From assembly GCF_036017915.1 (NCBI RefSeq), contig NZ_CP107929.1:1178001-1242000 (forward strand): DNA of 64,000 nucleotides, read 5' to 3'. The translations under genes were made by a program, and so were the position numbers. Position 1 is the first letter of the stretch, and each line of letters starts with the position of its first letter. Shown here one piece after another: positions 1 through 17,233 of the stretch. A model generated the notes under the pieces. The model was not told the origin of the DNA. It did no database searches and was given only the letters and a program-made list of their open reading frames with translations. Source of the DNA: Micromonospora sp. NBC_00421. Its GTDB lineage: Bacteria > Actinomycetota > Actinomycetes > Mycobacteriales > Micromonosporaceae.

Positions 1-3000
1 TGCGCCATCGCCTCCATGCCCAGCACGGCGGGGAAGAGCAGGTCCCCGTCGAGCAGGTGGTCGGGCAGGTAGAGGTCGTCCTCGGCGGTCAGGTCGGCGT
101 CCACGACCAGCTCCACGCCCGGGTAGTGCACCTGCAGCCGGTCGACGAAGCGCAGCAGCGGCACGTCGCACCGCTCCAGCGTGACCGTCGGCAGGCCGTC
201 GGCGCGACCCATCACCACAAGCGTCTGCGGTGCGGCCGGGCTGGCCAGCACCTCCTTCAGCGTCGCGATGCCGGCCTCCACCGGGATCGGCGCGATGCCG
301 TCGCGGGTGAGGGCCTCCAGCACCCCGAGCCGCTCGCCCATGCCGGCGCCGGACCACACCGACCACTCCAGCGCCAGGCACCGGATGTGCGGGTAGTCCT
401 CGCCGACCTTGCGGGTCAGGTCGGTCATCCAGTCGTTGGCCGTGGCGTAGTGCCCCTCGCCGCGCAGCCCGGCCCGGCCGATGATGCTGCCGAAGGTGAC
501 AAGCAGCCGCAACGTGTGCGGGTCGGTCGCGGCGAGCACGGCCTCCAGCCCGTCGATCTTCGGGGCGAGGGTCCGCCGGAACGTGGCCTCGTCGAGGTTG
601 GCCACCGCCGTCGGCTCGTTGCGGCCGGCGCCGTGCAGCACGCCGGTGACCGGGCCGAGGACCCGCTCGATGTCGTTGACGGCCGCCTTCACCTCGTCCA
701 GCGCGGTGATGTCCGCGCGGGCGTAGTGGAAGCGCACCCCGGCGGCGGTGAGCCGGTCGAGGTTGGCCGCCAGCTCCGCGTCGGTCGCCGGATCGGAGCG
801 GCCGATCAGGCCCACCGCCGCGAGGGTGTCCCGGCCCAGGGCCAGGGCGCACTCCGCGGTGATGCCCTTGCCGCCGCCGGTGACCAGCAGCACGTCCTCC
901 ACGCCGAGCCCCGGCCCGCCGTTGGGCGCCAGGGTCGCCGGCCGCAGCACCGGCACGTACCGGTTGCCGTCGGCGTCGTAGTGCACCTCGCTGAACCCGG
1001 CGGTGGCCGCCACGTCGGCGACCACCCGGGTCACCGTGGCCGTCACCGCCTCCTCGGACGGTGCGTCGGCGAGCGGCAGGGTGACCACAGTGGTGGCGAT
1101 CTCCGGGTGTTCCTGGTGCAGCGTCTTGGCCAGGCCGGCGGCGTTGCGCCGGTCGCCGACCGTCACGAACCGGACGGCGGTGCCCTGTGCCAGCGCGGCC
1201 CGCGCCGCCCGCAGCATCACCGGGATGTGCTCGGGCTGGCAGTCGCGGGGCAGGCACAGCAGCACCCCGCCGCCGACCCGGGCCTGTTGCAGCGCCGTGC
1301 GCAGTGGCTCGGCGAGTGCGCTGTGCCCGGCGGTGAACGCCTGCCATCCGCCGTCGACCGGGGCGTCGACCCGGGGCCCGACCTCGGTGGGCACCAGGTC
1401 GACGGCGAACGCCCGCACCCACGGCGCCACCCCGGCGATCGACGTGTCCGACTCGTCGGTGTCGGCCGTGGCGCCGGCGTCGTCGAGGATCTGCGCGATC
1501 TCCGCCACAGTGGCGGTGGCGTAGCTGGAGGTCAGCGTCGGCGCCGCCACGTTGAGCTCCCGGGCGGCCTGGTTGACGATCTGGCCGACGGTGATCGAGC
1601 TGAGGTGCAGCTCGTCGAGCGGCCGGCTGTCCGGCCGCACCGCCTCCAGGGGAAGCTCCGCCCGCTCGGCGGCGAGCCGGCGCAGCAACCCCAGGCTGTC
1701 GACCGTGGCGCCGGGCCCGGAGACCGCCACCGACGCGCCGCCCGGCGCCACCGCGACGGCGGCCGGCTCCTCGGCGGTACGGGCCACCGCGAAGTCCCCG
1801 GCCGGCGCCGACTCGGCGGGGCTGGCGAAGAAGCGCAGCGGCCGGCCCGGCTCCAGTGGCCGGGTGAACCGGTCCTGGAACAACGCCCCGTGGTTGACCG
1901 GCGCCCCCGCCGCGTACGCCGCGCCGACCGCGTTGAGCAGGCCCGCGAGGGAGAGGCTGTCGGTCTCCAGCGAGATCGTCGGCACCTGCGGGGCGATGTC
2001 GGCGGCCAGCCCGCGCAGCACCCGGCCGGGGCCGACCTCCAGCAGCAGGTCGGCGTCGTCGGCCAGGCGGCGTACCGCCTGGGTGAACCGCACCGGGTCC
2101 AGTACCTGCCGGCGCAGCAGGTCCGGCACGTCGGTGTCGGCCGGCAGCACGGTGCCGGTGACCGTGGAGACCATGGTCTGCGACAGCGGCGCGAAGGTCT
2201 CGCCGCGCAGGTGCTCGGCGAACGCGACGGCCGCCGGGGCGACGGCCTCGGAGTGGAAGGCGTGCGACACCGCGATACGGGTCCAGAACAACCCGGCCCG
2301 CTCGGCGCGCGCACCGACCTGCTGCACGTCCTCGACCAGGCCGGAGACCACGGTCTGCTGCGGGCTGTTGTAGCCGGCGATGACCACAGGCGTGCCGGCC
2401 AGCAGCGGCTCCACCACCTCGGGGGCGGCGGAGATGCTGGCCATCGTGCCGTCCCCGGCGCTGGCGTCGGCCATGATCCGCCCACGTGCGCCGGCGGTCG
2501 CGATGAGCGTCTGCTCGTCCATGGCGCCGGCCCAGTGCAGGGCGGTCAGCTCGCCGAGGCTGTGTCCGGCCGCGCCGGTGGCCCGGATACCGAGCATCGA
2601 CAGCGCCCGCAGGCCGGCGACCGACGCCGTCACGATCCGCGGCTGGGCCACCGCCGTGGCCACCAGGTCCGCACCGGGCGGCGGCTGGTGGGCCCGGTAC
2701 AGGGCGTCGATCTCCTCGAACCGTCGGCGCAGCGCGCCGCCGTCGGCCCGTCGGCCCGCACCCTGGCCGGGGAAGAGGAACCCGATCCTCGGAGCGGGCC
2801 CCGCCGTGCCGAGGAAGACGCCGCCGGCCGCGTCGATCACCCGCTGCTCGCCCGCGTCGAGCAGCTCGACCAACCGCTCCAGCCGCTGCCGCGCCTGTTC
2901 GGGCGAGGCGACGACCACCGCCGCCCGCACCGGTCGGCCGGTGAGCTTTCCCGCCAGGGCCGCGGCCAGGTCGCCCAGTTCGGCGTACGAGAGCCGGCCC

Positions 3001-4526
3001 ACCCACGGCGCCAGGTCCGACAGCCGCGAGCCCAGCTCCTGCGGGGTACGCGCGTCGAACATCAGCAGCTCGGCGTCCTGCCGGGAGCGCACCAGCGCGG
3101 TCGTCGACGCCCCGATGCGGGTCCGTCGGCCGCTCTCCGCGCTCTCGACCACCAGGTGGGCGTTGATGCCGCCGAAGCCCATCGACGACACGGCCGCCCG
3201 GACCGGCTTGTCGGCCGGCCACAGCTCCGCCGTGGCGGGCACCCGCAGGGCGGGCTGCTCCACGTCGAGCACCGGGTGCGGATCCACGTGCCCGGTGGCC
3301 GGGGGGATGACCTGCTGGCGTACCGCGAGGATCGCCTTGAGCAGTCCGGCGACCCCGGCGGCGGCCTTGGTGTGCCCGAAGTTGCCCTTCACGGTGCTGA
3401 TCGCGGCGGGTGCGCCCACCGGGTCGGCCTCCTGCCGGGCCTCGGTGAACGCGCGCAGCTCCGTGGCGTCACCGACGGCGGTGCCGGTGCCGTGGCCCTC
3501 CAGGTAGGACACCGAGTCGATGCCGAAGCCGGCCCGCTCGTACGCCCGCCGGATGGCCAGCCGGTGGCCGCTGGCCTCCGGCCGGGTGATGCCGCCCTTG
3601 CCGTCGGAGGAGTAACCCCAGCCGGCGATGACGGCGTGCCGGCGCAGGCCTCGCGCCACCGCGTCGGAGTCGCGCATCAGCACCAGCATCCCGCAGCCCT
3701 CGCCGGGCCAGAACCCGTTGGAGTTGCGGTCGTAGACCCGCATCTCGCCGGTGGCCAACGCGCCGGTCTTGGCGAAGCCGATCACCTCGAACGGGTCGAT
3801 GCTCAGGTCCACCCCGCCGGCCACGGCCGCGTCGAGGTCGCCCCGGGCCAGGGCGTTGCAGGCGGTGGCGACCGACAGCAGCGACGACGAGCAGGCACCG
3901 TCGACGGTGAAGCCGCCACCCTTGAAGTCGAAGTGGTTGCAGACCCGGCCGGCGATGGTGTTGGCCAGGCCGCCGGCCAGGGTGTCCTCGTCGATCGGCG
4001 GGAACGGTGCCTTGTAGCGCGGCTCCAGCCCGTCGAGGAACGCGCCGACGGCGGCGTCGTCCCAGCCCTGCTCGCGCAGCGCCGCCCCGACCGTGCGCCG
4101 CACGTACGGCCAGCGCAGCCGCAGCAGGTTGGCCCGGCTGAACTCGCCGGTGAGGGTGTTGCCGATGATCACGCCGGTGGTGGTCAGCGGCAGCCCCTCG
4201 CCGTCGGCGAAGCCGGCGTCGGCCAGGGCCCGGGAGACGGTGTCCAGGGCCAGCCAGTGCGTCATGTCGGTGGACCGGAAGGTGCTTCCGGCGATCTTGT
4301 ACTTGACCCGGTCGAACTCGAAGCCCTCGATCACGGCGGCCTTGGCCGAGTAGAACCGGTCGGGCGCGGCGGGGTCGGGGGAGTAGTAGTCCTCGGAGTT
4401 CATCCGCTCGTCGGGCAACCGGCGGAAGGCCCGACGGCCGGTGAGGACGTTCTCCCACAGCTGGTTGGGGTCCTCCGCGTCGGGATACCGGCAGGCGATC
4501 CCGACGACGGCTATGCGTTCGCTCAC
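1..4526 (-). CDS. pksE: Enediyne iterative type I polyketide synthase (PksE), 3' end cut by the window edge
   Basis: Builds the polyene precursor of an enediyne core by iterative malonyl-CoA condensation. About 1508 codons are visible; family members are near 1900, so the rest of the dehydratase and the C-terminal domain lie outside. Domain order seen: ketosynthase with DGACSSSL (Cys212) and the GHGTGT and NFGH histidine motifs; acyltransferase with GHSLGEL (Ser656); an acyl carrier domain with LHLSSITVGQ (carrier serine about 976-977); ketoreductase from about 1205 (VTGGGKGI, later YATAN); and the start of a dehydratase with DHLLDGDLLFP. The KS-AT-ACP-KR-DH order and the carrier motif are those of enediyne synthases, not modular PKS. 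The GTG start overlaps the UnbU stop (GTGA) and has AGGAG upstream, so the two are translationally coupled. The final product cannot be told from this gene alone. Confidence 0.95.
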   Translation of the reverse strand, partial: MSERIAVVGIACRYPDAEDPNQLWENVLTGRRAFRRLPDERMNSEDYYSPDPAAPDRFYSAKAAVIEGFEFDRVKYKIAGSTFRSTDMTHWLALDTVSRALADAGFADGEGLPLTTTGVIIGNTLTGEFSRANLLRLRWPYVRRTVGAALREQGWDDAAVGAFLDGLEPRYKAPFPPIDEDTLAGGLANTIAGRVCNHFDFKGGGFTVDGACSSSLLSVATACNALARGDLDAAVAGGVDLSIDPFEVIGFAKTGALATGEMRVYDRNSNGFWPGEGCGMLVLMRDSDAVARGLRRHAVIAGWGYSSDGKGGITRPEASGHRLAIRRAYERAGFGIDSVSYLEGHGTGTAVGDATELRAFTEARQEADPVGAPAAISTVKGNFGHTKAAAGVAGLLKAILAVRQQVIPPATGHVDPHPVLDVEQPALRVPATAELWPADKPVRAAVSSMGFGGINAHLVVESAESGRRTRIGASTTALVRSRQDAELLMFDARTPQELGSRLSDLAPWVGRLSYAELGDLAAALAGKLTGRPVRAAVVVASPEQARQRLERLVELLDAGEQRVIDAAGGVFLGTAGPAPRIGFLFPGQGAGRRADGGALRRRFEEIDALYRAHQPPPGADLVATAVAQPRIVTASVAGLRALSMLGIRATGAAGHSLGELTALHWAGAMDEQTLIATAGARGRIMADASAGDGTMASISAAPEVVEPLLAGTPVVIAGYNSPQQTVVSGLVEDVQQVGARAERAGLFWTRIAVSHAFHSEAVAPAAVAFAEHLRGETFAPLSQTMVSTVTGTVLPADTDVPDLLRRQVLDPVRFTQAVRRLADDADLLLEVGPGRVLRGLAADIAPQVPTISLETDSLSLAGLLNAVGAAYAAGAPVNHGALFQDRFTRPLEPGRPLRFFASPAESAPAGDFAVARTAEEPAAVAVAPGGASVAVSGPGATVDSLGLLRRLAAERAELPLEAVRPDSRPLDELHLSSITVGQIVNQAARELNVAAPTLTSSYATATVAEIAQILDDAGATADTDESDTSIAGVAPWVRAFAVDLVPTEVGPRVDAPVDGGWQAFTAGHSALAEPLRTALQQARVGGGVLLCLPRDCQPEHIPVMLRAARAALAQGTAVRFVTVGDRRNAAGLAKTLHQEHPEIATTVVTLPLADAPSEEAVTATVTRVVADVAATAGFSEVHYDADGNRYVPVLRPATLAPNGGPGLGVEDVLLVTGGGKGITAECALALGRDTLAAVGLIGRSDPATDAELAANLDRLTAAGVRFHYARADITALDEVKAAVNDIERVLGPVTGVLHGAGRNEPTAVANLDEATFRRTLAPKIDGLEAVLAATDPHTLRLLVTFGSIIGRAGLRGEGHYATANDWMTDLTRKVGEDYPHIRCLALEWSVWSGAGMGERLGVLEALTRDGIAPIPVEAGIATLKEVLASPAAPQTLVVMGRADGLPTVTLERCDVPLLRFVDRLQVHYPGVELVVDADLTAEDDLYLPDHLLDGDLLFPAVLGMEAMA

Positions 4527-5500
4527 GCGATGCTCCTGGGGGTGTCGAGGGTCAGCGCGGTGGCGGTGCGGGACTTCTTGCGGAGGTCGGCGATCCACCA
4601 GCCCACGCCGCGGATGGCGCAGACGACGACCACCGCGAAGAAGAGCGTGTAGACGACGTTGAACAGCATCAGCACGCCGTAGGTCATGGCCACGCCGGAG
4701 CCGAACATGAACTGGTTCATCGGCTTGACCGGGGTGGTGCCCGGGTCGGTGATCATGTAGTTGGTGAACAGCACGAACGCCACCCCGGTCATCACGCCCA
4801 GCGCGGAGAACAGCGCCACGTCCCAGATCCAGTGCCGGATGAACGCCTGGATGGCGAAGCCGCCGAGCCAGCCGACGATCAGCGGGACCTTGCGGGTCAG
4901 CAGCGCGTTGATCACGGTGCCGGCGGTCACGATGATGATCGGGATCATGATCCGGAAGTACGTGTTGGCGTTCTCCGTGAACTGGTACGGCGGGGCGATG
5001 GAGATCCAGGAGCCGAAGCAGACCAGCGCCATCGTGATGCCGAAGTTCGACGGGTTCATGTAGTGCCGCATCCGGCCGTAGACCGGCGCCTGGAAGACGT
5101 ACTTGCCGGTCACGCCGACGATCACGGCGAACGCGATCGGCAGGAACATGTCGTTGGCGTACAGGAGCATGTTGCAGGCCAGCGCGGTGATGTGCGAAGG
5201 CAGCAGGAACTCGTACACCCGGCGGGCGCCGCCGCCGAGGAACCGGGGGGTGTCCTTCTTCGCCCAGGCCCGGACCAGCTCGAAGCTGATCTCGGCGGCG
5301 TAGCCGGTGAGCACGGCGAAGATGGGCCACAGCCACGGCTGCTCGAAGCCGAGCAGCGTGTAGCCGAAGATGTTGAACACGCTGATGGACAGGGCGAAGT
5401 TGCGCAGGGCCAGGTAGCGGCGGTCGGGCGCGGGTTTGGCCGGGACGACGGGAGCCGCGGGCGCGGTGTCGATGCTGGGGGGAGAGGCGATCGTGGTCAT
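4523..5500 (-). CDS. unbU: UnbU-type integral membrane protein of the enediyne cassette (RnfD/NqrB-like)
   Basis: A 325-residue protein with many hydrophobic segments, lying directly before the enediyne synthase as UnbU genes do in enediyne clusters. It resembles the NqrB/RnfD family of membrane subunits of electron-transport complexes: MNPSNFGI in the middle and ITDPGTTPVKP near the C-terminus are like the NPA-x-FG and TDP motifs of that family. Its role in enediyne formation is not established; electron transfer or export are possible. The ATG overlaps the UnbV stop (ATGA), and its own stop overlaps the synthase start. Family membership rests on context and motifs. Confidence 0.85.
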   Translation of the reverse strand: MTTIASPPSIDTAPAAPVVPAKPAPDRRYLALRNFALSISVFNIFGYTLLGFEQPWLWPIFAVLTGYAAEISFELVRAWAKKDTPRFLGGGARRVYEFLLPSHITALACNMLLYANDMFLPIAFAVIVGVTGKYVFQAPVYGRMRHYMNPSNFGITMALVCFGSWISIAPPYQFTENANTYFRIMIPIIIVTAGTVINALLTRKVPLIVGWLGGFAIQAFIRHWIWDVALFSALGVMTGVAFVLFTNYMITDPGTTPVKPMNQFMFGSGVAMTYGVLMLFNVVYTLFFAVVVVCAIRGVGWWIADLRKKSRTATALTLDTPRSIA

Positions 5501-7467
5501 CGGTTCGGAACCTCCTCGACGCGGTCGGTCAGCACGAGGGTGTGCGTGCCGGCGGTGAGCTGCTCGCTGACGCTGTGCTGCTGGCCGCTCAGGTCACGCC
5601 AACGCATGTCGACGGTGACCGGGCCACTGGTGGCTCCCAGTCCGAAGTGGACCTCGAAGCTGCGCTTGCCGCCGTGGCCGCTGCCGCCGTCGAGCTGGGA
5701 GATCTGCTTGCGTCCGTCGGGCGTGGTGACGGTGACGGTGGCGCCGTAAGCCGGGGTGCAGAGCATCTTGCCCGCCGGGGCGTCGACCGCCGGCCGGTAC
5801 AGCCGCAGGTTCAGGTAGTTGCCCTTGCCCGGCGCCTCGTTGACGTAGAACGCCGGCGGGCCCCACTGGCGGGCCACCGCGAGGTCCAACGCGCCGATAC
5901 CCCGGGTGTCGGCCGTGGCGATGCCCCGGGTGGGGATCGGCACGTCCAGGCCGACCTGCCCGGTGATGTTGGCGAACTCGCCGCTTGCCGTGCGGGCGAA
6001 GAACGCCAGCGGCTGGCTGCCGGCGATGTCGTCGCCGGGCTGCATGTTCGGCCACATCGCCGGGTTGGACATCAGGTCGTCGTTCATCATGGCCATCTCC
6101 TGCAGCCACGGCCAGCGGTCGATCTTGCCCTTGACGAAGCCGAGGGTCTGCACGACGTCCAGGTCGCCGCTGTTGAGGAAGTCGCCGAACTTCACGTCCC
6201 AGCCCCAGCCGCTCCAGGCCAGGCCGAGCGGGCGGGCCTCCTGGGTGAACGGGGCGACGCCCTTGTCCAGCTTGGCGAGCATGTCACCCTCGTCGCGGGC
6301 CCGGTTGATCCAGACGAAGTTGCTCTCCTCCAGGCCCCAGGCCGTGGTGATGTTGGAGACCATCATGTCGAAGGTGCCGTTGCGGTCCAGGTCACCGAAG
6401 TCGATGCCCATGCCCTTGAACGAGCCGTTGCCGAGCACGAACGACTTGGGCGTGGTGGGGGTGCGCTCGCCGACGGCGACCGTGAATTCGATGCGGCCGG
6501 GCTTGGAGACGTTGTGCAGCAGGTGGTCGTGGCCGAAGTCGTTGGCGACGTAGACGTCGGGCAGGCCCCGGCCGGTGAGGTCGGCGGCGTTGAGGCCCAG
6601 CGTCCAGCCGGTCGACGCGACGAACGGGATCGCTGCGCGCTCCGGCACGAAGGTCACCGAGGGGGCGTCGCCCGAGGTCGCCGACAGCCAGCGCAGGACG
6701 TGGCTGCCACCACCGTTTGTGGCGCTGGACAGCGTCTCGTTCATCTCGACGTTGTCCTGGCCCCTGGTGTTGAGCACGTCGGACTCGGGGAAGTAGTTGC
6801 CGATCACCACGTCCGGCCGGCCGTCGCCGTCGAGGTCGCTGACCAGCGTGGCGTTGGTGTGCCACTTGGGCCCGTGGTAGAGGCCGTCGGGCGAGCTCTG
6901 CGGCAGCAGCTCCTGGCGCTGGTACGTCGCGTTGGACACCGTGGTGGCGCTGGCCTTGTGCAGGAACAGGATCGGCACCCGGCCCCAGAAGGTGACCATG
7001 AGGTCCATCCGGCCGTCGAGGTTGTAGTCACCCGGCACGCAGCCCATCGGCGCCATCGTGTCGTCGATCGGCAGCGGCGCCGGATCGAGGATGAACGGCG
7101 CGAACTGGTCCTCCTTCGGCGCGGTGGGCGCGTAGGTCACGACCACCTTGTCGGTGCGCACGTCCACGAAGCACAGGCTGTTGGCGCGGCCGTGACCGGT
7201 GAGGTCGTTGACGGCGATGCTCGCGCCGACCGACGAGACCCAGGCGCGGATCTTGTGGTAAGACCGGTTGACGTCGCGACTTGTCTTCTTGGGTAGCTGG
7301 TCGTAGCCGTCCGGGTAGGCGATCGGCTGCTCGGTGAAGCGGTATCGTGTGGCGGTCTCATCGGCACCGGCGACGGACACGCGGCTGTCGATGATGAAAA
7401 AGAGCGAGGCCACGAGTAGAATCGCGACTATTCCGGGACTGAGCGAGCGTGCGCGTTGACCCAGCAC
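5497..7467 (-). CDS. unbV: UnbV: secreted or membrane-anchored FG-GAP/ASPIC-UnbV repeat protein of the enediyne cassette
   Basis: A 656-residue protein starting with a hydrophobic segment (about residues 12-27) that is either a signal peptide or an anchor, so the body should be outside the membrane. The body holds several FG-GAP/VCBS-type calcium-binding-like loops: DYNLDGRMDL near 150, DLDGDGRPDV near 211, DLTGRGLPDV near 298 and DLDRNGTFDM near 358. The C-terminal 80 or so residues (YGATVTVTTPDGRKQ, then GSGHGGKRSFEVHFGLG) match the ASPIC/UnbV domain, which is named after this enediyne protein. GTG start with AAGGAG eight bases upstream. It is the first gene of the unbV-unbU-pksE operon. 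The biochemical role is unknown. Confidence 0.9.
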   Translation of the reverse strand: MLGQRARSLSPGIVAILLVASLFFIIDSRVSVAGADETATRYRFTEQPIAYPDGYDQLPKKTSRDVNRSYHKIRAWVSSVGASIAVNDLTGHGRANSLCFVDVRTDKVVVTYAPTAPKEDQFAPFILDPAPLPIDDTMAPMGCVPGDYNLDGRMDLMVTFWGRVPILFLHKASATTVSNATYQRQELLPQSSPDGLYHGPKWHTNATLVSDLDGDGRPDVVIGNYFPESDVLNTRGQDNVEMNETLSSATNGGGSHVLRWLSATSGDAPSVTFVPERAAIPFVASTGWTLGLNAADLTGRGLPDVYVANDFGHDHLLHNVSKPGRIEFTVAVGERTPTTPKSFVLGNGSFKGMGIDFGDLDRNGTFDMMVSNITTAWGLEESNFVWINRARDEGDMLAKLDKGVAPFTQEARPLGLAWSGWGWDVKFGDFLNSGDLDVVQTLGFVKGKIDRWPWLQEMAMMNDDLMSNPAMWPNMQPGDDIAGSQPLAFFARTASGEFANITGQVGLDVPIPTRGIATADTRGIGALDLAVARQWGPPAFYVNEAPGKGNYLNLRLYRPAVDAPAGKMLCTPAYGATVTVTTPDGRKQISQLDGGSGHGGKRSFEVHFGLGATSGPVTVDMRWRDLSGQQHSVSEQLTAGTHTLVLTDRVEEVPNR

Positions 7468-8047: not shown

Positions 8048-8362
8048 GTGTCTGTCGAGGGTTTCTGGAAGGTGGCCGTCGCCACCCCGTTCGGCGTCCG
8101 CCGCACCGAGTTGGAGCTGTTCAGCAAGGACGGTGTCCTGCAGGGCATCTCCCGTGGTGAGAAGGAGACGCTCACCCTGAACGACCTCCGGCTGGAGGGT
8201 AACCAGCTGTCCTGGTACCAGTCGATCAAGAAGCCGATGCGGATGGACCTGGCCTTCGACGTGACGATCGACGGCGACGAGATGACCGGCACCGCCAAGG
8301 GCGGCCCGATGCCGGCGGCGAAGGTCAGCGGTCACCGCGAGCCGGCGACCCAGCCCGCCTGA
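8048..8362 (+). CDS. Small beta-barrel-like protein of unknown function, possibly lipid/polyene binding
   Basis: 104 residues from a GTG preceded by GAGAGGAAG. The sequence alternates short beta-strand-like stretches with G-x-W, DGV, EGNQLSWYQ and DGDEMTGTAKGG turns, as expected of a small up-and-down beta-barrel (calycin or fatty-acid-binding-like). No catalytic motif is visible. Its place beside the enediyne operon recalls DynF of the dynemicin cluster, a small beta-barrel proposed to hold the polyene intermediate; I could not compare the sequences, so that link is an inference from size, fold pattern and context. A hairpin follows its stop. Confidence 0.6.
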   Translation: MSVEGFWKVAVATPFGVRRTELELFSKDGVLQGISRGEKETLTLNDLRLEGNQLSWYQSIKKPMRMDLAFDVTIDGDEMTGTAKGGPMPAAKVSGHREPATQPA

Positions 8363-8515: not shown

Positions 8516-10069
8516 ATGACCGACTTGCCAGCGGGCACCGAGCACCATCGTTATCTGATCATCGGCGGTGGTCCGGCCGGCCTCCAGCTGAGCTACTACC
8601 TCCAGCAGGCCGGCAGCGACTACCTGACGCTGGAGCGCGCGGCCGAGCCCGGCGAGTTCTTCCGCCGGTTCCCCCGCCACCGCAAGCTGATCTCCCTGAA
8701 CAAGGTGCACACCACGAGCACCGATCCGGAGATCCGGCTGCGCTGGGACTGGAACTCGCTGCTGCACACCCCGGCCGACCTGCCGTTCGCCGACTACAGC
8801 CGGGAATACTTCCCCTCCGCCGACGACATGGTCCGCTACCTCGGCGACTTCGCCCGCCACCACGGGCTCGCCGTCCGCTACGACACGACGGTCGAGCGGG
8901 TGTCCAGGACCGAGGACGGCTTCCTCGTCCGCGCCGGCGGGCGGCTGCTGCACGCCGACTGCGTGGTGGTGGCGGCCGGCTGGGGCAGGCCCCACATCCC
9001 CGACGTACGCGGCATCGAGCACGCGATCGGCTACGAGGACATGAGCACCGACCCGGCCGACTACGCCGACCAGCGGGTCCTCATCCTCGGTAAGGGCAAC
9101 TCCGCGTTCGAGACCGCCTCGGCGATCCTCGGGCACGCCGCCATGATCCACCTGGCCAGCCCGCGCCCCCTGCGGCTGGCCTGGAACACCAAGCACCCCG
9201 GCGACGTACGCGGCCACCACGGCGCGGTCCTGGACAGCTACCAGTTCAAGACCCTGCACTCCGTGCTCGACTGCGTCGTCGACGAGATCCGCCCGGTGGG
9301 GGACAGGTACGAGGTGCGCCTGACCTACACCCACGCCGACGGCGAGACGGCCGTGATGGAGTACGAGTCGGTGCTGCGCTGCACCGGCTTCGCCATGGAC
9401 ACCTCGATCTTCGCCGACGACTGCCGCCCCGGCATGGTGCCCAGCGGGCGGCTGCCCGCCACCCGCCCCGACTGGCAGTCGGTCGACGTCGACGGGCTCT
9501 ACTTCGCCGGCACGCTGGCCCAGGACCGGGACTTCAAGAAGGCCTCGTCGGCCTTCATCGACGGGTTTCGCTACAACCTGCGTACCCTCGCCGCCCTGCT
9601 GCGCGAGCGGTACGACGGCGCGCCGCTGGCGTACGAGAAGGTCGCGGCGGACGCCGAGGCGCTCACCGAGGTGGTGCTGGACCGGGTCAACTGGAGCTCG
9701 GCGCTGTGGACCCAGTTCGAGTTCCTCTGCGACGCCCTCGTCGTCGACGCCGGCGCCGGGGTGGTGCGCCACTACCACGACCTGCCCGAGGACCACGCGG
9801 TCGCCCGGTTCGGCGGCGAGAGCCACTACTACACGTTCTCGCTGCGCTGGGGCCGTGACAGCTACTCCGACGTGTTCGCCATCGAGCGGCATCCGCAGCC
9901 CGACCGGGCTGCCGAGAGCGCCTTCATCCACCCCGTGGTGCGCCGCTACCGGGGCGGGGAACTGGTCGAGGAGCTGCACCTGCTGGAGGACCTGCTGGCC
10001 GAGTGGCGTCGGCAGGACCGGCACGTGCAGCCCCTGCGTGACTTCTTCACCGCGGACCTGGGGCGGTGA
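8516..10069 (+). CDS. FAD-dependent NAD(P)-binding oxidoreductase (FMO/FOXRED2-like)
   Basis: 517 residues; ATG with GGGAG upstream. The N-terminal FAD-binding Rossmann motif is IIGGGPAGLQLSYYL (about residues 13-27), and a second dinucleotide fold appears at LILGKGNSAFETAS (about 190-203), the two-fold layout of flavin monooxygenases. The region RRFPRHRKLISLNKVHT is typical of the FOXRED2-like branch. The last 150 residues are a family-specific extension without a motif I know. It may oxidise or hydroxylate a pathway intermediate if it belongs to the enediyne cluster next door, but the substrate is unknown. It runs tail to tail with the nitroreductase, four bases apart. Confidence 0.8.
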   Translation: MTDLPAGTEHHRYLIIGGGPAGLQLSYYLQQAGSDYLTLERAAEPGEFFRRFPRHRKLISLNKVHTTSTDPEIRLRWDWNSLLHTPADLPFADYSREYFPSADDMVRYLGDFARHHGLAVRYDTTVERVSRTEDGFLVRAGGRLLHADCVVVAAGWGRPHIPDVRGIEHAIGYEDMSTDPADYADQRVLILGKGNSAFETASAILGHAAMIHLASPRPLRLAWNTKHPGDVRGHHGAVLDSYQFKTLHSVLDCVVDEIRPVGDRYEVRLTYTHADGETAVMEYESVLRCTGFAMDTSIFADDCRPGMVPSGRLPATRPDWQSVDVDGLYFAGTLAQDRDFKKASSAFIDGFRYNLRTLAALLRERYDGAPLAYEKVAADAEALTEVVLDRVNWSSALWTQFEFLCDALVVDAGAGVVRHYHDLPEDHAVARFGGESHYYTFSLRWGRDSYSDVFAIERHPQPDRAAESAFIHPVVRRYRGGELVEELHLLEDLLAEWRRQDRHVQPLRDFFTADLGR

Positions 10070-10073
10070 GGTC

Positions 10074-10727
10074 CTACCGGAGGACCATGACCTCCGACAA
10101 CTTCTTGCGGGTCAGCTGCGGGACGGTGACCCCCTCGGCCGGGTAGCCGACCGGTATCACCAGGCAGGCGCGCTCCTCGCCCGGACGCTCGCAGATGTCG
10201 TTGAGGAACCGCATCGGGCTGGGCGTGTGGGTGAGGGTGGCGAGCCCGGACAGGTGCAGGGCGGTTATCAGCACCCCGACGGCGATACCCACCGACTCCT
10301 TGACGTAGTAGGGCTTCGGGGTGTGCGGCCCCTGGTGCACCTCGAACACCACGATGACCACGGGGGCGGTCTCCAGGAACGGCTTCTGCCAGTCGGTGCC
10401 CATCGGGGCCACCGCCTCCAGCCACTCCTGCGAGGCACGGCGCGTGTAGAACTCGACCTCCTCGGCCTCGGCGGCCTCGCGCAGCCGCCGCTTGCGGTCG
10501 GCGTCGGTCACCACCACGAAGCGCCAGGGTTGCAGGTTGGCGCCGCTGGGGGCCGTCGCGGCGGCCCGGACGGCCTCCTCGACGACCTCCAGCGGCACCG
10601 GCTCGGCCGAGAAGTGCCGCACCGACCGGCGGGCCGCCATCCGGTCGGCGAAGTCCCGGGCGGTGCGGCTCATCGACGTGGGATCCAGCCGTTGCAGCTG
10701 GAACGGGGTGGTCGCGATCTGGTTCAC
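10074..10727 (-). CDS. Iodotyrosine deiodinase-type nitroreductase (FMN-dependent reductive dehalogenase candidate)
   Basis: 217 residues from a GTG six bases after GGAGG. Nitroreductase fold with RRSVRHFS (FMN phosphate arginines) and APSGANLQPW. It follows the iodotyrosine deiodinase branch to the C-terminus: SVGIAVG, then LATLTHTPSPM, IPVGYPAEGVTVPQL and KKLSEVM. The substrate triad of the human enzyme (Glu157, Tyr161, Lys182) has an equivalent at Glu90, Tyr94 and Lys115, with identical spacing of 4 and 21 residues. That supports reductive dehalogenation of a halophenol such as halotyrosine rather than general nitroreduction. It lies close to the enediyne genes but on its own transcript. 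The actual substrate is not shown by sequence. Confidence 0.85.
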   Translation of the reverse strand: MNQIATTPFQLQRLDPTSMSRTARDFADRMAARRSVRHFSAEPVPLEVVEEAVRAAATAPSGANLQPWRFVVVTDADRKRRLREAAEAEEVEFYTRRASQEWLEAVAPMGTDWQKPFLETAPVVIVVFEVHQGPHTPKPYYVKESVGIAVGVLITALHLSGLATLTHTPSPMRFLNDICERPGEERACLVIPVGYPAEGVTVPQLTRKKLSEVMVLR

Positions 10728-10823
10728 GGGGGGCCTCCATCGGCAGGTCGGGGCCCCTCCAGCATCACCCACGCCACCCGCCGCCGGTTGTGCGTGATTG
10801 CCCAGATCGCCGCCCGCGAACAG

Positions 10824-11942
10824 TCAGCCCGCCGTCCGCTCCGCGAGGTCGTCGACGACGTCGGCGAGCGTGCCGCCGTCGCGGACGACGGCCCGCTGGC
10901 GGCGCGCCCCGGTGCCGTCGACGCCGAGCCGCTCCAGCCACTGTCCGACGGGGTCGTGGTCGCTGTGGGCGCGTAGCGCCGGCTCGACCGTGGCCAGCAG
11001 GTCGCGGACCAGTTCGGTCGTCGGCCGCAGCCTGCCCGTGCGCGGGTCCAGGCCCTCGCCGTCCAGGCCGTCGCGGGCTGCCCGCCAGTAGGCCGCCCGC
11101 AGCAGCTCACCGGTGACGTGCGGGGTGGGTTCGCCGGCGGCCACCGCGGCCGACAGGTGCACCACCAGCGCCCGCACCAGTGCCGCGTACCGCGCCGCGT
11201 CCTCGGCGGTGGTGGCGGAGTCGGCGACCCGGACCTCCAGGGTCGGGTACCGCTCCGAGGGGCGTACGTCCCAGAAGATGGTGGCCCGGTCGACGAGCGC
11301 GCCGACGTCGAGCAGTTGCCGTACCACCTGGTCGTAGTGCTCCGCCGAGTCGAACACCGGCGGCGGCCCGGCCACCGGCCACCGGCCCCAGACCGTGGTG
11401 CGCCAGCTCGCGTACCCGGAGTCGCGGCCGTCCCAGTAAGGCGAGTTCGCGGTCAGGGTCAGCAGCAGTGGGAGGTACGGCCGCAGGTGGTTGCCGACCA
11501 GCACCGCACGCTGCCGGTCGGGCATTTCCACGTGCACGTGCAGCGCGCACAACGCCAGCTCGTCGTGCAGGCCCCGGTACATCTCGTTGCCGAGGGTCTG
11601 CCGCGGGCCGACGGTCATCGGCGGCGGCACCGCCCCCGCGACGGGGGCCGTGCCGGTGGCGACCACCCGCAGCCCGGCCGCCCGCGCGCAGTCCGCGACG
11701 ACCTTGCGGGCCTCGCCGAGCTGGTCGGTCAGCTCGCCGAGGGTGCCGCAGGCGTGGGTCCGGGTCTCCAGTTGCAGTTCGGTGATCTCGCCCGACACCC
11801 GCTCCCCGAGCGACGCGGACGCCGCCGCCACGACCTCGGCGGCCCGGGGCACCGGGGCCCGGGTGACGGCGTCGACGACGAGGAACTCCTCCTCCACCCC
11901 GAAACGGGGCGGTGGGGCGGCCGGGGGCGTGGTGAGGGTCAT
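10824..11942 (-). CDS. Carboxylate-amine ligase, YbdK/GCS2 family
   Basis: 372 residues, the usual length. The N-terminus has FGVEEEFLVVD, the metal/ATP-binding glutamates of the glutamate-cysteine ligase type 2 superfamily. Further family landmarks are CALHVHVEMPDRQRA, LTANSPYWDGRDSGYASWR and the arginine-rich PTLEVRVADSATT. It joins a carboxylate to an amine using ATP, forming an amide; YbdK members have weak gamma-glutamylcysteine ligase activity and their true substrates are mostly unknown. It stands alone, 51 bases from the M20 peptidase stop, on the same strand. Confidence 0.88.
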   Translation of the reverse strand: MTLTTPPAAPPPRFGVEEEFLVVDAVTRAPVPRAAEVVAAASASLGERVSGEITELQLETRTHACGTLGELTDQLGEARKVVADCARAAGLRVVATGTAPVAGAVPPPMTVGPRQTLGNEMYRGLHDELALCALHVHVEMPDRQRAVLVGNHLRPYLPLLLTLTANSPYWDGRDSGYASWRTTVWGRWPVAGPPPVFDSAEHYDQVVRQLLDVGALVDRATIFWDVRPSERYPTLEVRVADSATTAEDAARYAALVRALVVHLSAAVAAGEPTPHVTGELLRAAYWRAARDGLDGEGLDPRTGRLRPTTELVRDLLATVEPALRAHSDHDPVGQWLERLGVDGTGARRQRAVVRDGGTLADVVDDLAERTAG

Positions 11943-11992
11943 GACACACCATTATGGACGGCTGATCGGCCCGTGGCCAGCAACGACGCGCC

Positions 11993-13159
11993 TCATAGGC
12001 GCGCGGGAACGCCTCGGGCCGCGCCGACCGGACCCCGCCGCTGCCGGGCGAGGACGCCGACGATCGTCGCGGCGAGCAGGGCGGCGCGGTCGGGCAACTG
12101 GCTCACGTCCACCCACTCGCTGCGGGCGTGCGACCCGCCGCCCACCCCGCCCAGGCCGTCCAGCGTGGCCACGCCCAGTGACCCGGTGAAGTTCGCGTCG
12201 GACGCGCCGGCGGCGTGCGCGGCCTCCAGCGGCGGCAGGCCCAGCTCGTGGCCGGCCCGCCGGGCGATCTCCAGCAGCGGCATGGCCACCGCCTCCTGCA
12301 ACGGGTAGCGGTTGATCCCGCCGCCCACCACGAGAGCGGCCTCGGCCAGGTGGGGGGTCAGCGCGTGGATCAGCCGGTCCACCCGGTCGAGCTCCTCCCT
12401 CGTCCAGGCGCGCACGTCGACGCAGAACGTCGCCGACTCGGGCACCTGGTTGCTGATGCTGCCGGCGCTGAGCACCGTCGGCGTGACGCTGGTGCCCTCG
12501 GCGGCGAACGCCCGTACGGCCAGGACCTGGTGGGCCAGCTCGACGGCAGCGTTCACCCCCCGGTGCGGCTCCACGCCCGCGTGCGCTGCCCGGCCGCGGA
12601 CGGTGATGTCGTACCTCGAACCGCCCTTGCGGGCGACCTTGAGCGCGCCGGTCTCCGTGGCCGGCTCGCCCACCAGCACCGCCCGCGACCGCCGGGCCTG
12701 CTGCTCGATCAGCGGCCGGGACGTCGGAGACCCGCTCTCCTCGTCGCAGGTCAGCAGCACCCCCACCCGGGAGGTGTCGGGTAGCAGCGACAGCGCGGTG
12801 ACCAGCTGCACGATGCCCGACTTCATGTCGCACACCCCGGGCCCGGTGGCGATGTGGTCGGCGAGCGCGAAGGGCCAGTCCCGCGTGGTGCCCTCCGGCC
12901 ACACCGTGTCGTAGTGCCCCAGCAGCAGCACCCGCTGGTCCTCGGCCTGCCAGAGCAGGTGCGGCAGCCCGTCGCGCACGACCCGCACGGCGGGCCGGCC
13001 CAGCAGCGGGCTGATCCAGCTCTCCAACAGGTCGGCGCAGGCGTGCAGGTGCCGCACCGCCCCGGGCGGGGATTCGGCGTGCACGAGTTGACGGAGTCGG
13101 TCCACCATGGGCCCGGCCTGCGTCCGGGCCTCCTGCCGTATGTGCGTCGTGTCGACCAT
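11993..13159 (-). CDS. M20 family metallopeptidase (glutamate carboxypeptidase/CPG2-like)
   Basis: 388 residues from the ATG at 13159; the open frame continues upstream but without similarity or a good start. Zinc-ligand motifs are visible: LLLGHYDTVWP (His, catalytic Asp), CDMKSG (bridging Asp), CDEESGS (catalytic base and zinc Glu), GEPATE, and a late GGGSHARSEWV holding the last His. The central lid domain (RGRAAHAGVEPHRGVNA) is the dimerisation insert of carboxypeptidase G2-like enzymes. It should hydrolyse an N-acyl amino acid or C-terminal glutamate amide in the cytosol. Next to an amide-forming ligase, but the physiological link is unclear. Confidence 0.88.
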   Translation of the reverse strand: MVDTTHIRQEARTQAGPMVDRLRQLVHAESPPGAVRHLHACADLLESWISPLLGRPAVRVVRDGLPHLLWQAEDQRVLLLGHYDTVWPEGTTRDWPFALADHIATGPGVCDMKSGIVQLVTALSLLPDTSRVGVLLTCDEESGSPTSRPLIEQQARRSRAVLVGEPATETGALKVARKGGSRYDITVRGRAAHAGVEPHRGVNAAVELAHQVLAVRAFAAEGTSVTPTVLSAGSISNQVPESATFCVDVRAWTREELDRVDRLIHALTPHLAEAALVVGGGINRYPLQEAVAMPLLEIARRAGHELGLPPLEAAHAAGASDANFTGSLGVATLDGLGGVGGGSHARSEWVDVSQLPDRAALLAATIVGVLARQRRGPVGAARGVPARL

Positions 13160-13396: not shown

Positions 13397-13948
13397 GTGG
13401 CACACATCGATCTGGGTCTGGACGAGACGCAGTACCCGGGGATCAGCGGGCTCATGCACTACCGACCGGAGACCGCCAAGGCGCTCAACGCCCTGGCCGA
13501 GGCGCTGCTGCACGCCCCGCACCCCACTCTCGGCGCCGGCGAGCGGGAGCTGATCGCGGCGTACGTCTCCGGGCTGAACGACTGCACGTTCTGCTGCTCG
13601 TCGCACTCGGCATTCGCCGCCGCCCAGCTCGACGGCGGCATGCCGTTGGTGGTCCAGGTCCGGACGGACCCGGACACGGCCGAGGTCTCCGCGAAGCTGC
13701 GCGGCCTGCTGCGGATCGCCGCCGCGGTCCAGTCCGGCGGGCGCCAGGTGAGCACCGCGCTTGTCGACGCGGCACGCGCCGAGGGCGCGACCGACCTGGA
13801 GATCCACGACACGGTGCTGATCGCCGCCGCGTTCTGCATGTTCAACCGCTACGTCGACGGGCTCGGCACCCGACTGCCGGAGGACCCGGTGGCCTACACC
13901 GAGACCGCGCAGCGAATCAAGGTCGGCGGATACGTGGGCTCGGCCTGA
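13397..13948 (+). CDS. Carboxymuconolactone decarboxylase/AhpD-family protein (peroxidase-related)
   Basis: 183 residues from a GTG preceded by GAGGAGAGA. The AhpD signature is complete: an upstream Glu in GERELIAAYVSG, then DCTFCCSSH with the redox Cys-x-x-Cys and the following His. Such proteins are small all-helical thiol peroxidases or their reductants. The surrounding divergent M20 peptidase and convergent membrane protein do not define a pathway. It ends at a strong shared terminator. Confidence 0.88.
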   Translation: MAHIDLGLDETQYPGISGLMHYRPETAKALNALAEALLHAPHPTLGAGERELIAAYVSGLNDCTFCCSSHSAFAAAQLDGGMPLVVQVRTDPDTAEVSAKLRGLLRIAAAVQSGGRQVSTALVDAARAEGATDLEIHDTVLIAAAFCMFNRYVDGLGTRLPEDPVAYTETAQRIKVGGYVGSA

Positions 13949-14000: not shown

Positions 14001-14936
14001 CTATCCGTTGTACGGCATGGTGGGGAACCAGCCGTAGCCGAACATCGCGGGCAGCCGCACGTCCCAGTACACGACCATGAAGACACCCAACGCGATCAGC
14101 AGTGCCCCGGTCACCGCGGCGGTACGGGTCGGGCTGGCCGCGAGCCATCGCACGAACCGGCCCCGGGTGGCCACGATGACCAGGGCGAACAACGCGGTGA
14201 CGATGGCGATGTTGCCGAGCGACTGGAGCACGAACGCGCCCGCCCCGTACAGCGGGTTGCCGGTCTCCACCGCCCAGTGGAAGAGCTTGTTGAACAGCGG
14301 GTACGGCCGGCCGATGAGGAACCCGCCGACCAGCGCGCCGAGCACCACCACCCGGGCGACCGGGCGACGCGCGAACGAGTCGGGCAGCGTGCCGAGCGCG
14401 GCCAGACCGAGGTAGACGAAGGCGAGCCCGATCACGCCGAAGACGACCATCGACTGGACCAGGCGCACCGGCAGCCCGCCGACGGTGTCGGTGGACAACT
14501 GTGGCAGCCGGTCGCCGAGCAGCACGCCCACGAAGCCGTACGTCGCGGCGACCGCCACCATCCCGACGGTGAGCCAGCCGACCGGCCGCAGCAGCACACG
14601 CAGCCCGGCCCGGGTCGCATCGGCGTCGCTGGCCTGGCTCATCGGGCCGACCGCGGCGGCCATCGCGATGTTGCACGCCGTGAACGTGCCGGCCAGGCCC
14701 GAGACGAACGCGAAGACCAGACCCGCGACGGTGCCACCGATGGCGGTGGCCTTCGCATCGTGGCCCAGCAGGGTGTTGGCGACGTTGTCGCCGATCACGT
14801 GGTCGACGAACTCGTACGACCACAGCACCGCCAGCAGGATTCCCGCCGCGACGCCGCCCAGGACGATCCGCCCGCGCGAGCGCGGATAGGCGTGCGCGGT
14901 GAGCTGGACCGCGCGCACTGTTTCGGTGTCAGTCAT
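14001..14936 (-). CDS. Polytopic membrane protein of unknown function
   Basis: 311 residues from the ATG at 14936; upstream in-frame sequence is not protein-like. About eight hydrophobic segments span residues 25-300, with the glycine-rich segment GGTVAGLVFAFVSGLAG followed by TFTACN and the charged loops GRPYPLFNKLFHWAVE and WDVRLPAMFGYGWFP. The arrangement is loosely like CcdA/LysE-type transporters, including a cysteine near the second helix, but I do not recognise a firm family. Transcribed alone, towards the AhpD-like gene. Confidence 0.75.
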   Translation of the reverse strand: MTDTETVRAVQLTAHAYPRSRGRIVLGGVAAGILLAVLWSYEFVDHVIGDNVANTLLGHDAKATAIGGTVAGLVFAFVSGLAGTFTACNIAMAAAVGPMSQASDADATRAGLRVLLRPVGWLTVGMVAVAATYGFVGVLLGDRLPQLSTDTVGGLPVRLVQSMVVFGVIGLAFVYLGLAALGTLPDSFARRPVARVVVLGALVGGFLIGRPYPLFNKLFHWAVETGNPLYGAGAFVLQSLGNIAIVTALFALVIVATRGRFVRWLAASPTRTAAVTGALLIALGVFMVVYWDVRLPAMFGYGWFPTMPYNG

Positions 14937-15051: not shown

Positions 15052-15897
15052 ATGTCGGTCACTCCGTACCAGTGGCGTCGCGTCCGTACCTCCGTGCCCG
15101 TCGTCCTCGGGCGGCTGCTCGACCTCGTCGGCGAGGCCCCGCCGGATCGGCCCGCCACCGCGCACTGGACGGTGGCGGACACCATGGCCCACCTGTGCAG
15201 TGTCGCCGCGATGGGGCTGGCCCTGGTCCGGAGCGCCCCACCCGACCTGCCGGTGCCCGATCTGCTCGAGCTGCGCCGGCGCACCACCGTCGACACGATC
15301 TCGGTGATGAACGCCGAGGTGCTGCGGCACTTCACCGAGCGGCGGCTGCCGGTGCTGGCCGAAAGGTTGCGCGCCGACGTCGAGGAGGTGCTGCGGGCGG
15401 CCGACGACGCCGGACCGGAGCACGAGGTGTCCTGGCTGGGCGGGGCCCGGCTGCCGGTCGCCGGGCTGCTGGCCCACCTGCTCAACGAGCTGAACCTGCA
15501 CGCCTGGGACATCGCCCGGGCACTCGGCCGACGTTGGGCCGTCGACCCCGCCGACGCCGCGCTCTTCGTCGACCTGTTCATGATCGGCATGACCCGCCGT
15601 GGCTACGGCCGGCTGCTGGACCGGGACGGCCCGGCGCATCCCGGACCGATCTCGGTGAACTTCCGGCACCGCTTCGGTCCCGAGGTGACCATGGCGCTGA
15701 TCGACGGCCGGGTGACGGTGGCACCGACGAAGCGCCGTCCCGACGTCCGGCTCTCCTTCGATCCGGCCACCTTCACGCTGATGCTGTTCGGTCGGGTGCC
15801 CCGGGTACGCGCGGTCCTCGGTGGCGCGGTGCGGGTGGGCGGCCGGCGGCCCTGGCTGCTGCCGATCTTCCTGCGCACCATGCGCCTGCCGTCCTGA
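15052..15897 (+). CDS. DinB/maleylpyruvate-isomerase-like domain protein with C-terminal SCP2-like domain
   Basis: 281 residues. The first 170 residues fit the mycothiol-dependent maleylpyruvate isomerase N-terminal fold, a four-helix DinB-like bundle: HWTVADTMAHL early and LLNELNLHAWDIARALG later supply the usual metal-ligand histidines and the Glu. The last 100 residues (GPISVNFRHRFGPEV, ALIDGRVTV, DVRLSFDPATFTLMLFGR) match the sterol-carrier-like SCP2 domain. Such actinobacterial proteins are thought to be mycothiol-dependent isomerases or transferases; no substrate can be named. The ATG at 15052 was chosen because earlier in-frame sequence is not conserved-looking. Confidence 0.82.
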   Translation: MSVTPYQWRRVRTSVPVVLGRLLDLVGEAPPDRPATAHWTVADTMAHLCSVAAMGLALVRSAPPDLPVPDLLELRRRTTVDTISVMNAEVLRHFTERRLPVLAERLRADVEEVLRAADDAGPEHEVSWLGGARLPVAGLLAHLLNELNLHAWDIARALGRRWAVDPADAALFVDLFMIGMTRRGYGRLLDRDGPAHPGPISVNFRHRFGPEVTMALIDGRVTVAPTKRRPDVRLSFDPATFTLMLFGRVPRVRAVLGGAVRVGGRRPWLLPIFLRTMRLPS

Positions 15898-16051
15898 CCC
15901 GGGTCGCCGACCTCGCCTGCCGTGCGGCGGCGACCGCGCCGGCGGGGCGAAGGGCACGGGCGCAACACGGAAGAAGTGCCCGCGCGCTGACGGGTGCGAC
16001 CGTGGGATGGACAAGGTCCACGAGGCGGAGAGCCTGCCCAAGGAGGAACTG

Positions 16052-17233
16052 GTGACGATTACCGAAACCCCCACGCGCGAGGAGATCCTCAGCCGCGTCG
16101 CCAAGGCCGAGCCGGTGCTGCGGGAGCACGTGGCCTGGTCGGAGGAGAACCGCCGCCTGCACGAGGCGACGGTCGAGGCGATGGCCGAGGCCGGCATCTT
16201 CCGGATGCGGGTGCCCAAGCGCTACGGCGGCTACGAGTGCGACGGCGCGACGCTTGTCGAGGTCGGCACGGCGCTGGGCCGCATCGACGGCTCCGTGGGC
16301 TGGGTCGCGATGGTGAACTGGATTCCCACGTACCTGGTCTGCATGTTTCCCGACGAGGTGCAGGACGAGGTGTTCTCGATTCCGGACGTGCGGGTCTGTG
16401 GCACCAACGCCCCCAAGGGCACGATGGTCCCGGTCGAGGGCGGCTACATCCTCAACGGCCGGTGGCCCTTCGTCAGTGGCGCGCACCACGCGCACTGGAT
16501 GGAGGCGGCGGCGGTCATTCTGCGCGACGGCGCCGAGCCGGAGCCGGTCATGACCATGGTGCCGATGTCCGACATGGAGCTCGTCGACGACTGGCACACC
16601 ACCGGGCTGCGCGGCTCGGGCAGCATCACGACGGTGGCCACGAACGTCTTCCTCCCCGCCGAGCGGGTCATCCCGCTGGGTGCCGCGCTGGGCCCGGACA
16701 CGCTGTCGGCGACCAACCGGAACATCCCGATCTACTCCACTCCGGCCACGCTGGTCGCCGCGGTCTCCGGGGTCGGCATGCTGGCCGGGCTGGCGAAGGC
16801 GGCCCGGGACACCTTCTTCGACCGGTTGCCCGACCGGAAGATCATCTACACCGACTACCCGAGCCAGGCCGAGGCCCCGCTGACCCACCTACGGGTCGGC
16901 TCCGCCACCCACAAGATCGACCAGGCGGTGTTCCACGCCCGGCGGATCGCCGAGGTCGTCGACCACAAGGCGTTCAGCGGCGAGGCGTGGACGGTCGAGG
17001 AGCGGGTCCGGGTACGCGCCGACCAGGGCGAAGCGGCGCGACTGGCCAAGGAGGTCGCCGACATCTTCCAGATGGCCAGCGGCGGCACCTCCATCTACAC
17101 CGACGTCCCGATCCAGCGCATCGTGCGGGACATCACCTCCGCCGCGCTGCACGGCCTCGTCGTCCCCGACGTCAACACCGAGCTGTACGGCAGGGTGCTG
17201 TGCGGACTGGAGCCCAACACCCTCTACATGTGA
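16052..17233 (+). CDS. Acyl-CoA-dehydrogenase-fold flavoprotein, likely flavin-dependent monooxygenase
   Basis: 393 residues from a GTG five bases after a perfect AAGGAGG (16040-16046). The whole length follows the acyl-CoA dehydrogenase fold: N-terminal helices with GIFRMRVPKRYGGYE, a beta domain with GGYILNGRWPFVSGAHHAHWM and TTGLRGSGSITTVATNVFLP, and a C-terminal four-helix bundle ending SIYTDVPIQRIVRDI. The R-x-P-x-x-Y-G-G and S-G-x-x-H features are those of the flavin-dependent hydroxylase branch (HpaB/DszC-like two-component monooxygenases) rather than fatty-acid oxidation. A flavin reductase partner is not nearby. It ends at a strong terminator shared with the cellulase gene. Confidence 0.78.
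   Translation: MTITETPTREEILSRVAKAEPVLREHVAWSEENRRLHEATVEAMAEAGIFRMRVPKRYGGYECDGATLVEVGTALGRIDGSVGWVAMVNWIPTYLVCMFPDEVQDEVFSIPDVRVCGTNAPKGTMVPVEGGYILNGRWPFVSGAHHAHWMEAAAVILRDGAEPEPVMTMVPMSDMELVDDWHTTGLRGSGSITTVATNVFLPAERVIPLGAALGPDTLSATNRNIPIYSTPATLVAAVSGVGMLAGLAKAARDTFFDRLPDRKIIYTDYPSQAEAPLTHLRVGSATHKIDQAVFHARRIAEVVDHKAFSGEAWTVEERVRVRADQGEAARLAKEVADIFQMASGGTSIYTDVPIQRIVRDITSAALHGLVVPDVNTELYGRVLCGLEPNTLYM

Follow-up and report, generated by a model that had tools for sequence, protein, structure and literature searches.

The window analysed here, a stretch of 64,000 nucleotides from Micromonospora sp. NBC_00421, corresponds to C1:1178001-1242000 of a single contig (C1) of 7,231,838 bases, and opens within a group of genes that very probably belongs to a complete enediyne-type biosynthetic cluster of the kind found in Kitasatospora sp. 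CB01950 (CB01950-like family). At its left edge three genes are located on the minus strand, namely unbV (E4; 5497..7467), whose product with FG-GAP repeats and a UnbV_ASPIC domain is the sole match to PF07593 in the genome, unbU (E5; 4523..5500), encoding a membrane protein, and pksE (E; window part 1..4526), encoding an enediyne-type iterative polyketide synthase (PKS). The start of unbV is a GTG at 7467, with 7413 favoured by the codon-bias caller. The unbV/unbU and unbU/pksE frames each overlap by 4 bases, confirming the coupled arrangement recognized in the first-pass annotation, which had also concluded that the window borders an enediyne cluster and had suggested looking further left for a TEBC thioesterase, UnbL and tailoring genes. 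Such genes were indeed found upon addition of 100 kb left of the window, in which genes were called by a codon-bias script with approximate start sites. pksE extends 1294 bases beyond window position 1 to C1:1176707 (L013:6707-12526), with its 5' end at 4526, and encodes a complete protein of 1939 amino acids. It is followed after 4 bases by the gene for the TEBC thioesterase (E10; C1:1176226-1176702) and after a further 3 bases by a flavin reductase gene (C1:1175704-1176222), both on the same minus strand, which makes up a five-gene run from unbV to the flavin reductase gene. Converging with this run is a plus-strand pair consisting of unbL (E3; C1:1173124-1174110), whose product matches DUF1702 with 421 bits, and a P450 gene (C1:1174107-1175474). 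The TEBC protein is a 4HBT thioesterase, whose top relatives of solved structure are 4i4j, an acyl carrier protein (ACP)-polyene thioesterase (228 bits), and CalE7 (212 bits). In the part of PMC5181780 covered, the enediyne PKS cassette is defined as E3/E4/E5/E/E10, and all five of these genes are present, intact and adjacent.

The synthase and its family

PksE exhibits the domain order KS-AT-ACP-KR-DH followed by a phosphopantetheinyl transferase (PPTase)-like C-terminus, with the carrier and the C-terminal part recognized by alignment. Its KS contains DGACSSS with Cys212, the AT GHSLGE with Ser656, the carrier DELHLSSI with Ser977 placed by alignment, and the KR TGGGKG and Tyr1360, all at positions that agree with those read earlier from the window, as does the start of the DH. 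The DH, which contains the motif PDHLLDGDLLFP and matches PS-DH (PF14765), and the PPTase-like region were both found once the sequence was extended beyond the window edge; the lack of a DH, of a C-terminal domain or of TEBC had been named in the first-pass annotation as what would speak against an enediyne synthase, and each of the three is present. The Pfam PP-binding model scores 19.8 bits on PksE, below its cut-off of 20.8. The matches listed for PksE, at least 120 in number, include full-length proteins with identities of up to 94%, and several of the matches carry the name 'enediyne polyketide synthase' at source, which excludes a chance origin of the observation; the closest among these matches is from Micromonospora carbonacea (94%), followed by other Micromonospora. 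Another kind of type I PKS was considered and rejected, since NCBIfam PKS models score far below their curated cut-offs and the five-gene cassette is complete.

For comparison with known systems, genomes were anchored by their TEBC proteins against PDB chains, giving G016 for dynemicin (100% to DynE7) and G019 for a calicheamicin-type cluster (98% to CalE7). As the sporolide anchor we used G149, which we take to be Salinispora tropica CNB-440, with its locus at 3.04 Mb. Both the catalytic motifs and the PPTase-like C-terminus of PksE can be aligned with the synthases of all three. In a PksE tree of 71 rows, built by a quick method under LG+G4 with several long branches flagged, and leaving out loci without a PksE frame of at least 1800 amino acids (including the broken G098 copy) as well as 7 duplicate copies from clade genomes, the phylogenetic placement earlier proposed as a check was obtained: this PksE and its close clade fall in a starred 32-row group together with Kitasatospora and Streptomyces clusters including that of CB01950, and with none of the three anchors. 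Sporolide and calicheamicin share a starred 21-row group, and dynemicin lies in an outer clade.

The cluster is common in its genus, as relatives of UnbU and of DUF1702 proteins were each found in 86 of 160 genus genomes. The close clade (UnbU identity at least 79%) comprises 10 genomes including the present one, and in nine of them PksE is a single open frame. In the record of Micromonospora sp. ATCC 39149 (L047/L048, L086) pksE is split into several frames, reflecting either an error in sequencing or decay of the gene. Named genomes were also scanned, with 80 of 525 unbU relatives kept, which gave Micromonospora sp. ATCC 39149, M. rubida, M. halophytica, M. rosaria, M. haikouensis and Salinispora fenicalii as close relatives and, beyond them, Kitasatospora and Streptomyces, including Kitasatospora sp. 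CB01950. Across genera a core set is maintained, consisting of a GMC oxidoreductase, an SDR, two CMD-like proteins, AraC, MDMPI-like and 3bHSD-like proteins, UnbL, P450, flavin reductase, TEBC, PksE, UnbU and UnbV, to which several clusters add TetR, an RPE65-like protein and a membrane protein. The CB01950-like family, a grouping of our own, is defined by the PksE group and the GMC/SDR/CMD-like module, and this cluster has both. With the CB01950 cluster it shares PksE (64%), UnbU (70%), UnbV (65%), TEBC (82%), P450 (69%), GMC (65%), SDR (77%) and the CMD-like protein g70 (68%), together with TetR, RPE65-like, AraC, MDMPI-like and 3bHSD-like genes and a single DUF1702; however, this PksE identity is below the 90% clade cut-off given in the portion of PMC5181780 covered. 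A similar association of DUF1702, enediyne PKS, thioesterase, flavin reductase and P450 is described for enediyne-type t1pks-1 clusters of Phytohabitans (PMC7692728, as far as covered), with strains and loci likened by description, and the PksE of Phytohabitans kaempferiae is 82% identical to the present one.

Ring-size markers and putative finishing modules

While the enediyne type of cluster is well known, what sets this version apart is the absence of both ring-size marker genes and the presence of a different set of putative finishing enzymes. According to the part of PMC5181780 covered, E2 marks 9-membered and R3 marks 10-membered enediynes. E2 was scored as a second DUF1702 gene, since a pair (E2 and E3) is present in the sporolide-position cluster and one copy each in the dynemicin- and calicheamicin-anchored genomes. 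No E2 was found in the present genome, which holds one DUF1702 gene of the E3 type, and in a DUF1702 tree of 46 rows its product falls in the E3-containing clade, apart from the E2 clade. The other clade genomes likewise hold one DUF1702 each, except Salinispora fenicalii (G037), whose second copy lies in a separate 10-type locus. R3 was taken as an ABC1/AarF-type kinase gene near the cassette, after TnmR3 in the part of PMC9464397 covered. Strong ABC1 genes are located near the dynemicin, calicheamicin (~25 kb) and Salinispora 10-type loci and none near the sporolide locus, nor was any found near an E2 locus on the cluster contig in nine E2-bearing genomes searched, some of whose contigs are short. 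In the close clade, a search of the cluster contig revealed no strong ABC1 gene near the cluster in any of the 10 genomes, although the absence in G088, whose cluster contig is 19.5 kb, says little; in G098 and the complete clade genomes the single ABC1 copy is on the cluster contig but megabases distant from the cluster. Among 12 E2-less Kitasatospora and Streptomyces relatives, ten carry ABC1 within ~21 kb of the DUF1702 gene, with CB01950 among them (~10 kb from unbU), the other two being G168, without ABC1, and G172, whose cluster is at a contig end. Because E2 is absent and no ABC1 gene lies near the cluster, the close clade receives no ring-size call, and the two-marker rule used for ranking clusters thus leaves it uncalled as a whole. 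A search for a neocarzinostatin-type apoprotein, which some 9-membered enediyne clusters encode, gave no match, with the control likewise matching nowhere.

The putative finishing enzymes of the clusters compared can be described as two modules. Module A is marked by a sporolide-type FAD oxidoreductase, and module B consists of the GMC oxidoreductase (C1:1161593-1163134), the SDR (C1:1166842-1167717) and CMD-like proteins, encoded to the left of unbL. In a comparison of eleven clusters, the E2-bearing ones have the module A oxidoreductase in common and this cluster lacks it, while CB01950-like clusters resemble it in SDR (74-77%), GMC (65-67%) and g70 (66-68%). At a threshold of E 1e-60 the module A oxidoreductase was not found in any of the 10 clade genomes including the present one, and it is present in all 10 E2-bearing genomes searched. 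Among 72 scanned loci beyond the close clade, each of at most 20 kb, 15 contain module A, 17 contain SDR and g70, none contains both and 40 contain neither. Similarly, in 34 whole genomes module A was observed in 10 and the module B SDR (identity at least 71%) in 22 with no overlap, the remaining two, with neither module, being those that carry the dynemicin and calicheamicin anchors; four genomes contain weaker SDR relatives (47-49%) elsewhere. One of the scanned loci, from Actinomadura xylanilytica (L133), has a module B as close as that of Kitasatospora (SDR 75%, GMC 68%) and a PksE of only 56% identity, a pattern consistent with a module exchanged independently of the cassette.

The anchored clusters differ in what they share. 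The sporolide-position cluster resembles the present one in the cassette as well as in PksE (56%), TEBC (76%), P450 (65%), flavin reductase (51-52%) and the 3bHSD-like protein (55-57%), but has the E2 and E3 pair together with the module A oxidoreductase; GMC and g70 are missing from it, and its SDR relative reaches only 30-32%. The calicheamicin-anchored cluster, with PksE at 54%, UnbU at 55%, TEBC at 68% and one DUF1702, differs by having no counterpart of the P450 and flavin reductase, no module B, and the ABC1 gene noted above. The dynemicin-anchored cluster is more distant (PksE 43%, UnbU 50%, TEBC 51%) and, in addition to its outer PksE clade and nearby ABC1, lacks counterparts of the P450 and flavin reductase, its sole SDR relative (47%) being 2 Mb away.

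The predicted enediyne core and its possible ring size

As reported for other members of the family, PksE would most likely build a polyene iteratively on its own carrier domain, and TEBC would most likely release it. For other pairs of PksE and thioesterase, a linear conjugated heptaene has been reported (cited in PMC8725005). UnbL, UnbV and UnbU may then help turn the polyene into a diyne core, UnbU possibly serving as a membrane redox component, as its structural model suggests. The core would be finished by the P450, by the flavin reductase acting with acyl-CoA-dehydrogenase-like monooxygenases and by module B, which may stand in for E2 and the sporolide-type oxidoreductase of module A. 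A study of the dynemicin pathway from 2022 (PMC8725005) describes the finishing of enediyne cores as mostly unknown. The first-pass annotation had assigned the cluster to a class of highly reactive DNA-cleaving compounds; its enediyne type is borne out by the genes, and an enediyne product with DNA-cleaving reactivity is what membership of the family would predict. Its reservation about which compound is made still holds; no product of this cluster family was found reported in the literature searched, which took in few subscription papers.

Our tentative first choice is a core that is not 9-membered and would most likely be 10-membered, given that both E2 and module A are missing and that the closest relatives with R3 have been published as 10-membered. 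With less than even confidence, we thus favour a 10-membered enediyne as predicted for CB01950 (PMC5181780), from which the Micromonospora branch would differ merely by loss of the R3 regulator, and with which the ABC1 genes near the clusters of most E2-less Kitasatospora and Streptomyces relatives and the single DUF1702 with nearby ABC1 of the calicheamicin- and dynemicin-anchored genomes are consistent. However, the present cluster has no such ABC1 gene nearby, and the CB01950 call is, in the parts of its source covered, a prediction and not proved by structure. The P450 (65-68%) and flavin reductase point in another direction: each of the four E2-bearing clusters in the comparison, like the CB01950-like ones, contains close relatives of them, and no counterparts were found in the three 10-type clusters included (calicheamicin, dynemicin and Salinispora); flavin reductase relatives (37-53%) also occur in the single-DUF1702 loci L070, L071 and L084. 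It is because this distribution pulls towards a 9-membered ring that the ring size is not called with confidence. A 9-membered enediyne, by descent from E2-bearing clusters in which E2 was dispensed with and module B replaced the work of module A, is nevertheless unlikely: E2-bearing clusters do share the 32-row PksE group (L112, L114, L119, L123, L132 and L136), but the published marker is missing from the genome and the sporolide-type oxidoreductase from the whole clade. Besides the P450 and flavin reductase, further points weigh against the reading that we favour and the exclusion of modules A and B linked to it. ABC1 is equated with R3 on account of the name TnmR3 and of its location close to three 10-type anchors; most of the 34 genomes were picked with their local content already known, making them less independent than the count of 72 loci; and on the PksE tree, where 38 rows were labelled A or B (25 being unlabelled) and 6 changes are needed, seven independent pairs gave five opposite, none the same and two not differing (p 0.0625), so that the tree-based exclusion is suggestive only.

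It is also improbable, somewhat more so than a 9-membered ring, that the product is not an active enediyne at all, the cassette being kept by a pathway that makes a polyene or is otherwise remodelled or silent. Both ring markers are missing, module B is made up of generic oxidoreductases, a Pfam scan that took in 33 of the 35 block genes (all but g60 and g61) detected no glycosyltransferase, the PksE frame is split in one clade member's record, and non-canonical enediyne pathways such as that of the sungeidines have been reported. Yet the whole cassette is intact in nine of 10 clade genomes and retained across genera, which argues that selection maintains a product of the usual type, and the lone broken pksE frame may be a sequencing error. 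Equally improbable in our estimate is that module B represents a third way of finishing a common polyene or diyne, leading to a core that is neither of the known 9- nor of the known 10-membered kind, with modules A and B exchanged behind one cassette in the course of evolution. With a cassette, P450 and flavin reductase kept in a widespread family and other enzymes in the place of E2 and the sporolide-type oxidoreductase, these clusters offer a natural comparison between members of module A and module B type that have similar PksE proteins, and thereby access to the roles of the genes.

The conserved block, its surroundings and UnbU

Synteny with nine clade genomes, of which two were extended leftwards, places the conserved block at ~C1:1152573-1195233, its right end being window position 17233. 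Genes g60-g90 mostly keep their order across the nine genomes with identities mostly of 60-97%, with gaps in Salinispora fenicalii, in G117 and where contigs or fetched stretches stop. The left start of the block in the two extended genomes is g56, which encodes a monooxygenase and starts at C1:1152573. In addition to the GMC oxidoreductase and SDR, the left part encodes an AraC regulator, 3bHSD-like, MDMPI-like and CMD-like proteins, TetR, an MFS protein and others, as well as an RPE65/carotenoid-oxygenase-like protein (L012:6076-7422) that could act on the polyene; most of the clade and the CB01950-like clusters carry this last gene, and Salinispora fenicalii does not.

To the right of unbV, a small protein without Pfam match (8048..8362, plus) is kept in all nine clade relatives compared. 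It is followed by an FAD-dependent oxidoreductase with Pyr_redox_3 (8516..10069, plus), a nitroreductase-family protein (10074..10727, minus) and a GCS2-type glutamate-cysteine ligase-like protein (10824..11942, minus), each found in seven of the nine relatives, and by an M20 peptidase-like protein (11993..13159, minus), found in six, with one other contig stopping short of the gene. The stretch 8516-13159 formed by these four genes is absent from G117 and G037, and it may have a thiol-related protective role. Further right are a CMD/AhpD-like protein (13397..13948, plus), a membrane protein without Pfam match (14001..14936, minus), an MDMPI-N protein of mycothiol-dependent type (15052..15897, plus) and, at the right end of the block, the acyl-CoA-dehydrogenase-like flavin monooxygenase g90 (16007..17233, plus), whose best PDB match is XiaF. 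Monooxygenases of this acyl-CoA-dehydrogenase-like type are thus located at both ends of the block, g56 being ~60% identical to g90 orthologues. The membrane protein was considered as a third ring marker and rejected, since relatives of it are encoded close to several enediyne cassettes, some of them E2-bearing (M. lupini, L153) and others of the 10-type.

Next after the block lies a GH5 cellulase gene with CBM2 (17373-18983), which is not common to the relatives. On the left, the stretch from L010:5766 to L011:13236 encodes an adenylation enzyme, a C-A-T-reductase nonribosomal peptide synthetase, a carbamoyltransferase, a condensation-domain protein and a radical SAM protein. This group was rejected as part of the cluster, having no syntenic match in the relatives compared, with synteny to the two extended clade genomes beginning at C1:1152573.

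As for UnbU, its structural model resembles the fold of the RnfD/NqrB membrane electron-transfer subunits. Against PDB sequences, profile A1 gave a single weak RnfD match (E 0.015) and profile A2 no match, and the SGAT/TGAT motif was not seen on reading the UnbU sequence. A sub-threshold match to PF03116 (24.0 bits against a cut-off of 27.7) was observed for the UnbU relative of L076. This locus and its counterparts L075 and L077, from three of 160 genus genomes (G106, G110 and G025, respectively), encode UnbV (~42%), UnbU (~47%) and DUF1702 (~30%) relatives and no PksE. Across 397 sampled genomes of the order, G110 alone matched at E 1e-80. The genes are part of an operon, syntenic among the three loci, that also encodes a discrete set of type II-like proteins, namely an ACP, two KS, a fragment of a chain length factor-like KS, a FabG-type KR, a methyltransferase and a glycosyltransferase. 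In these loci the trio of enediyne accessory genes would accordingly go with a type II synthase.

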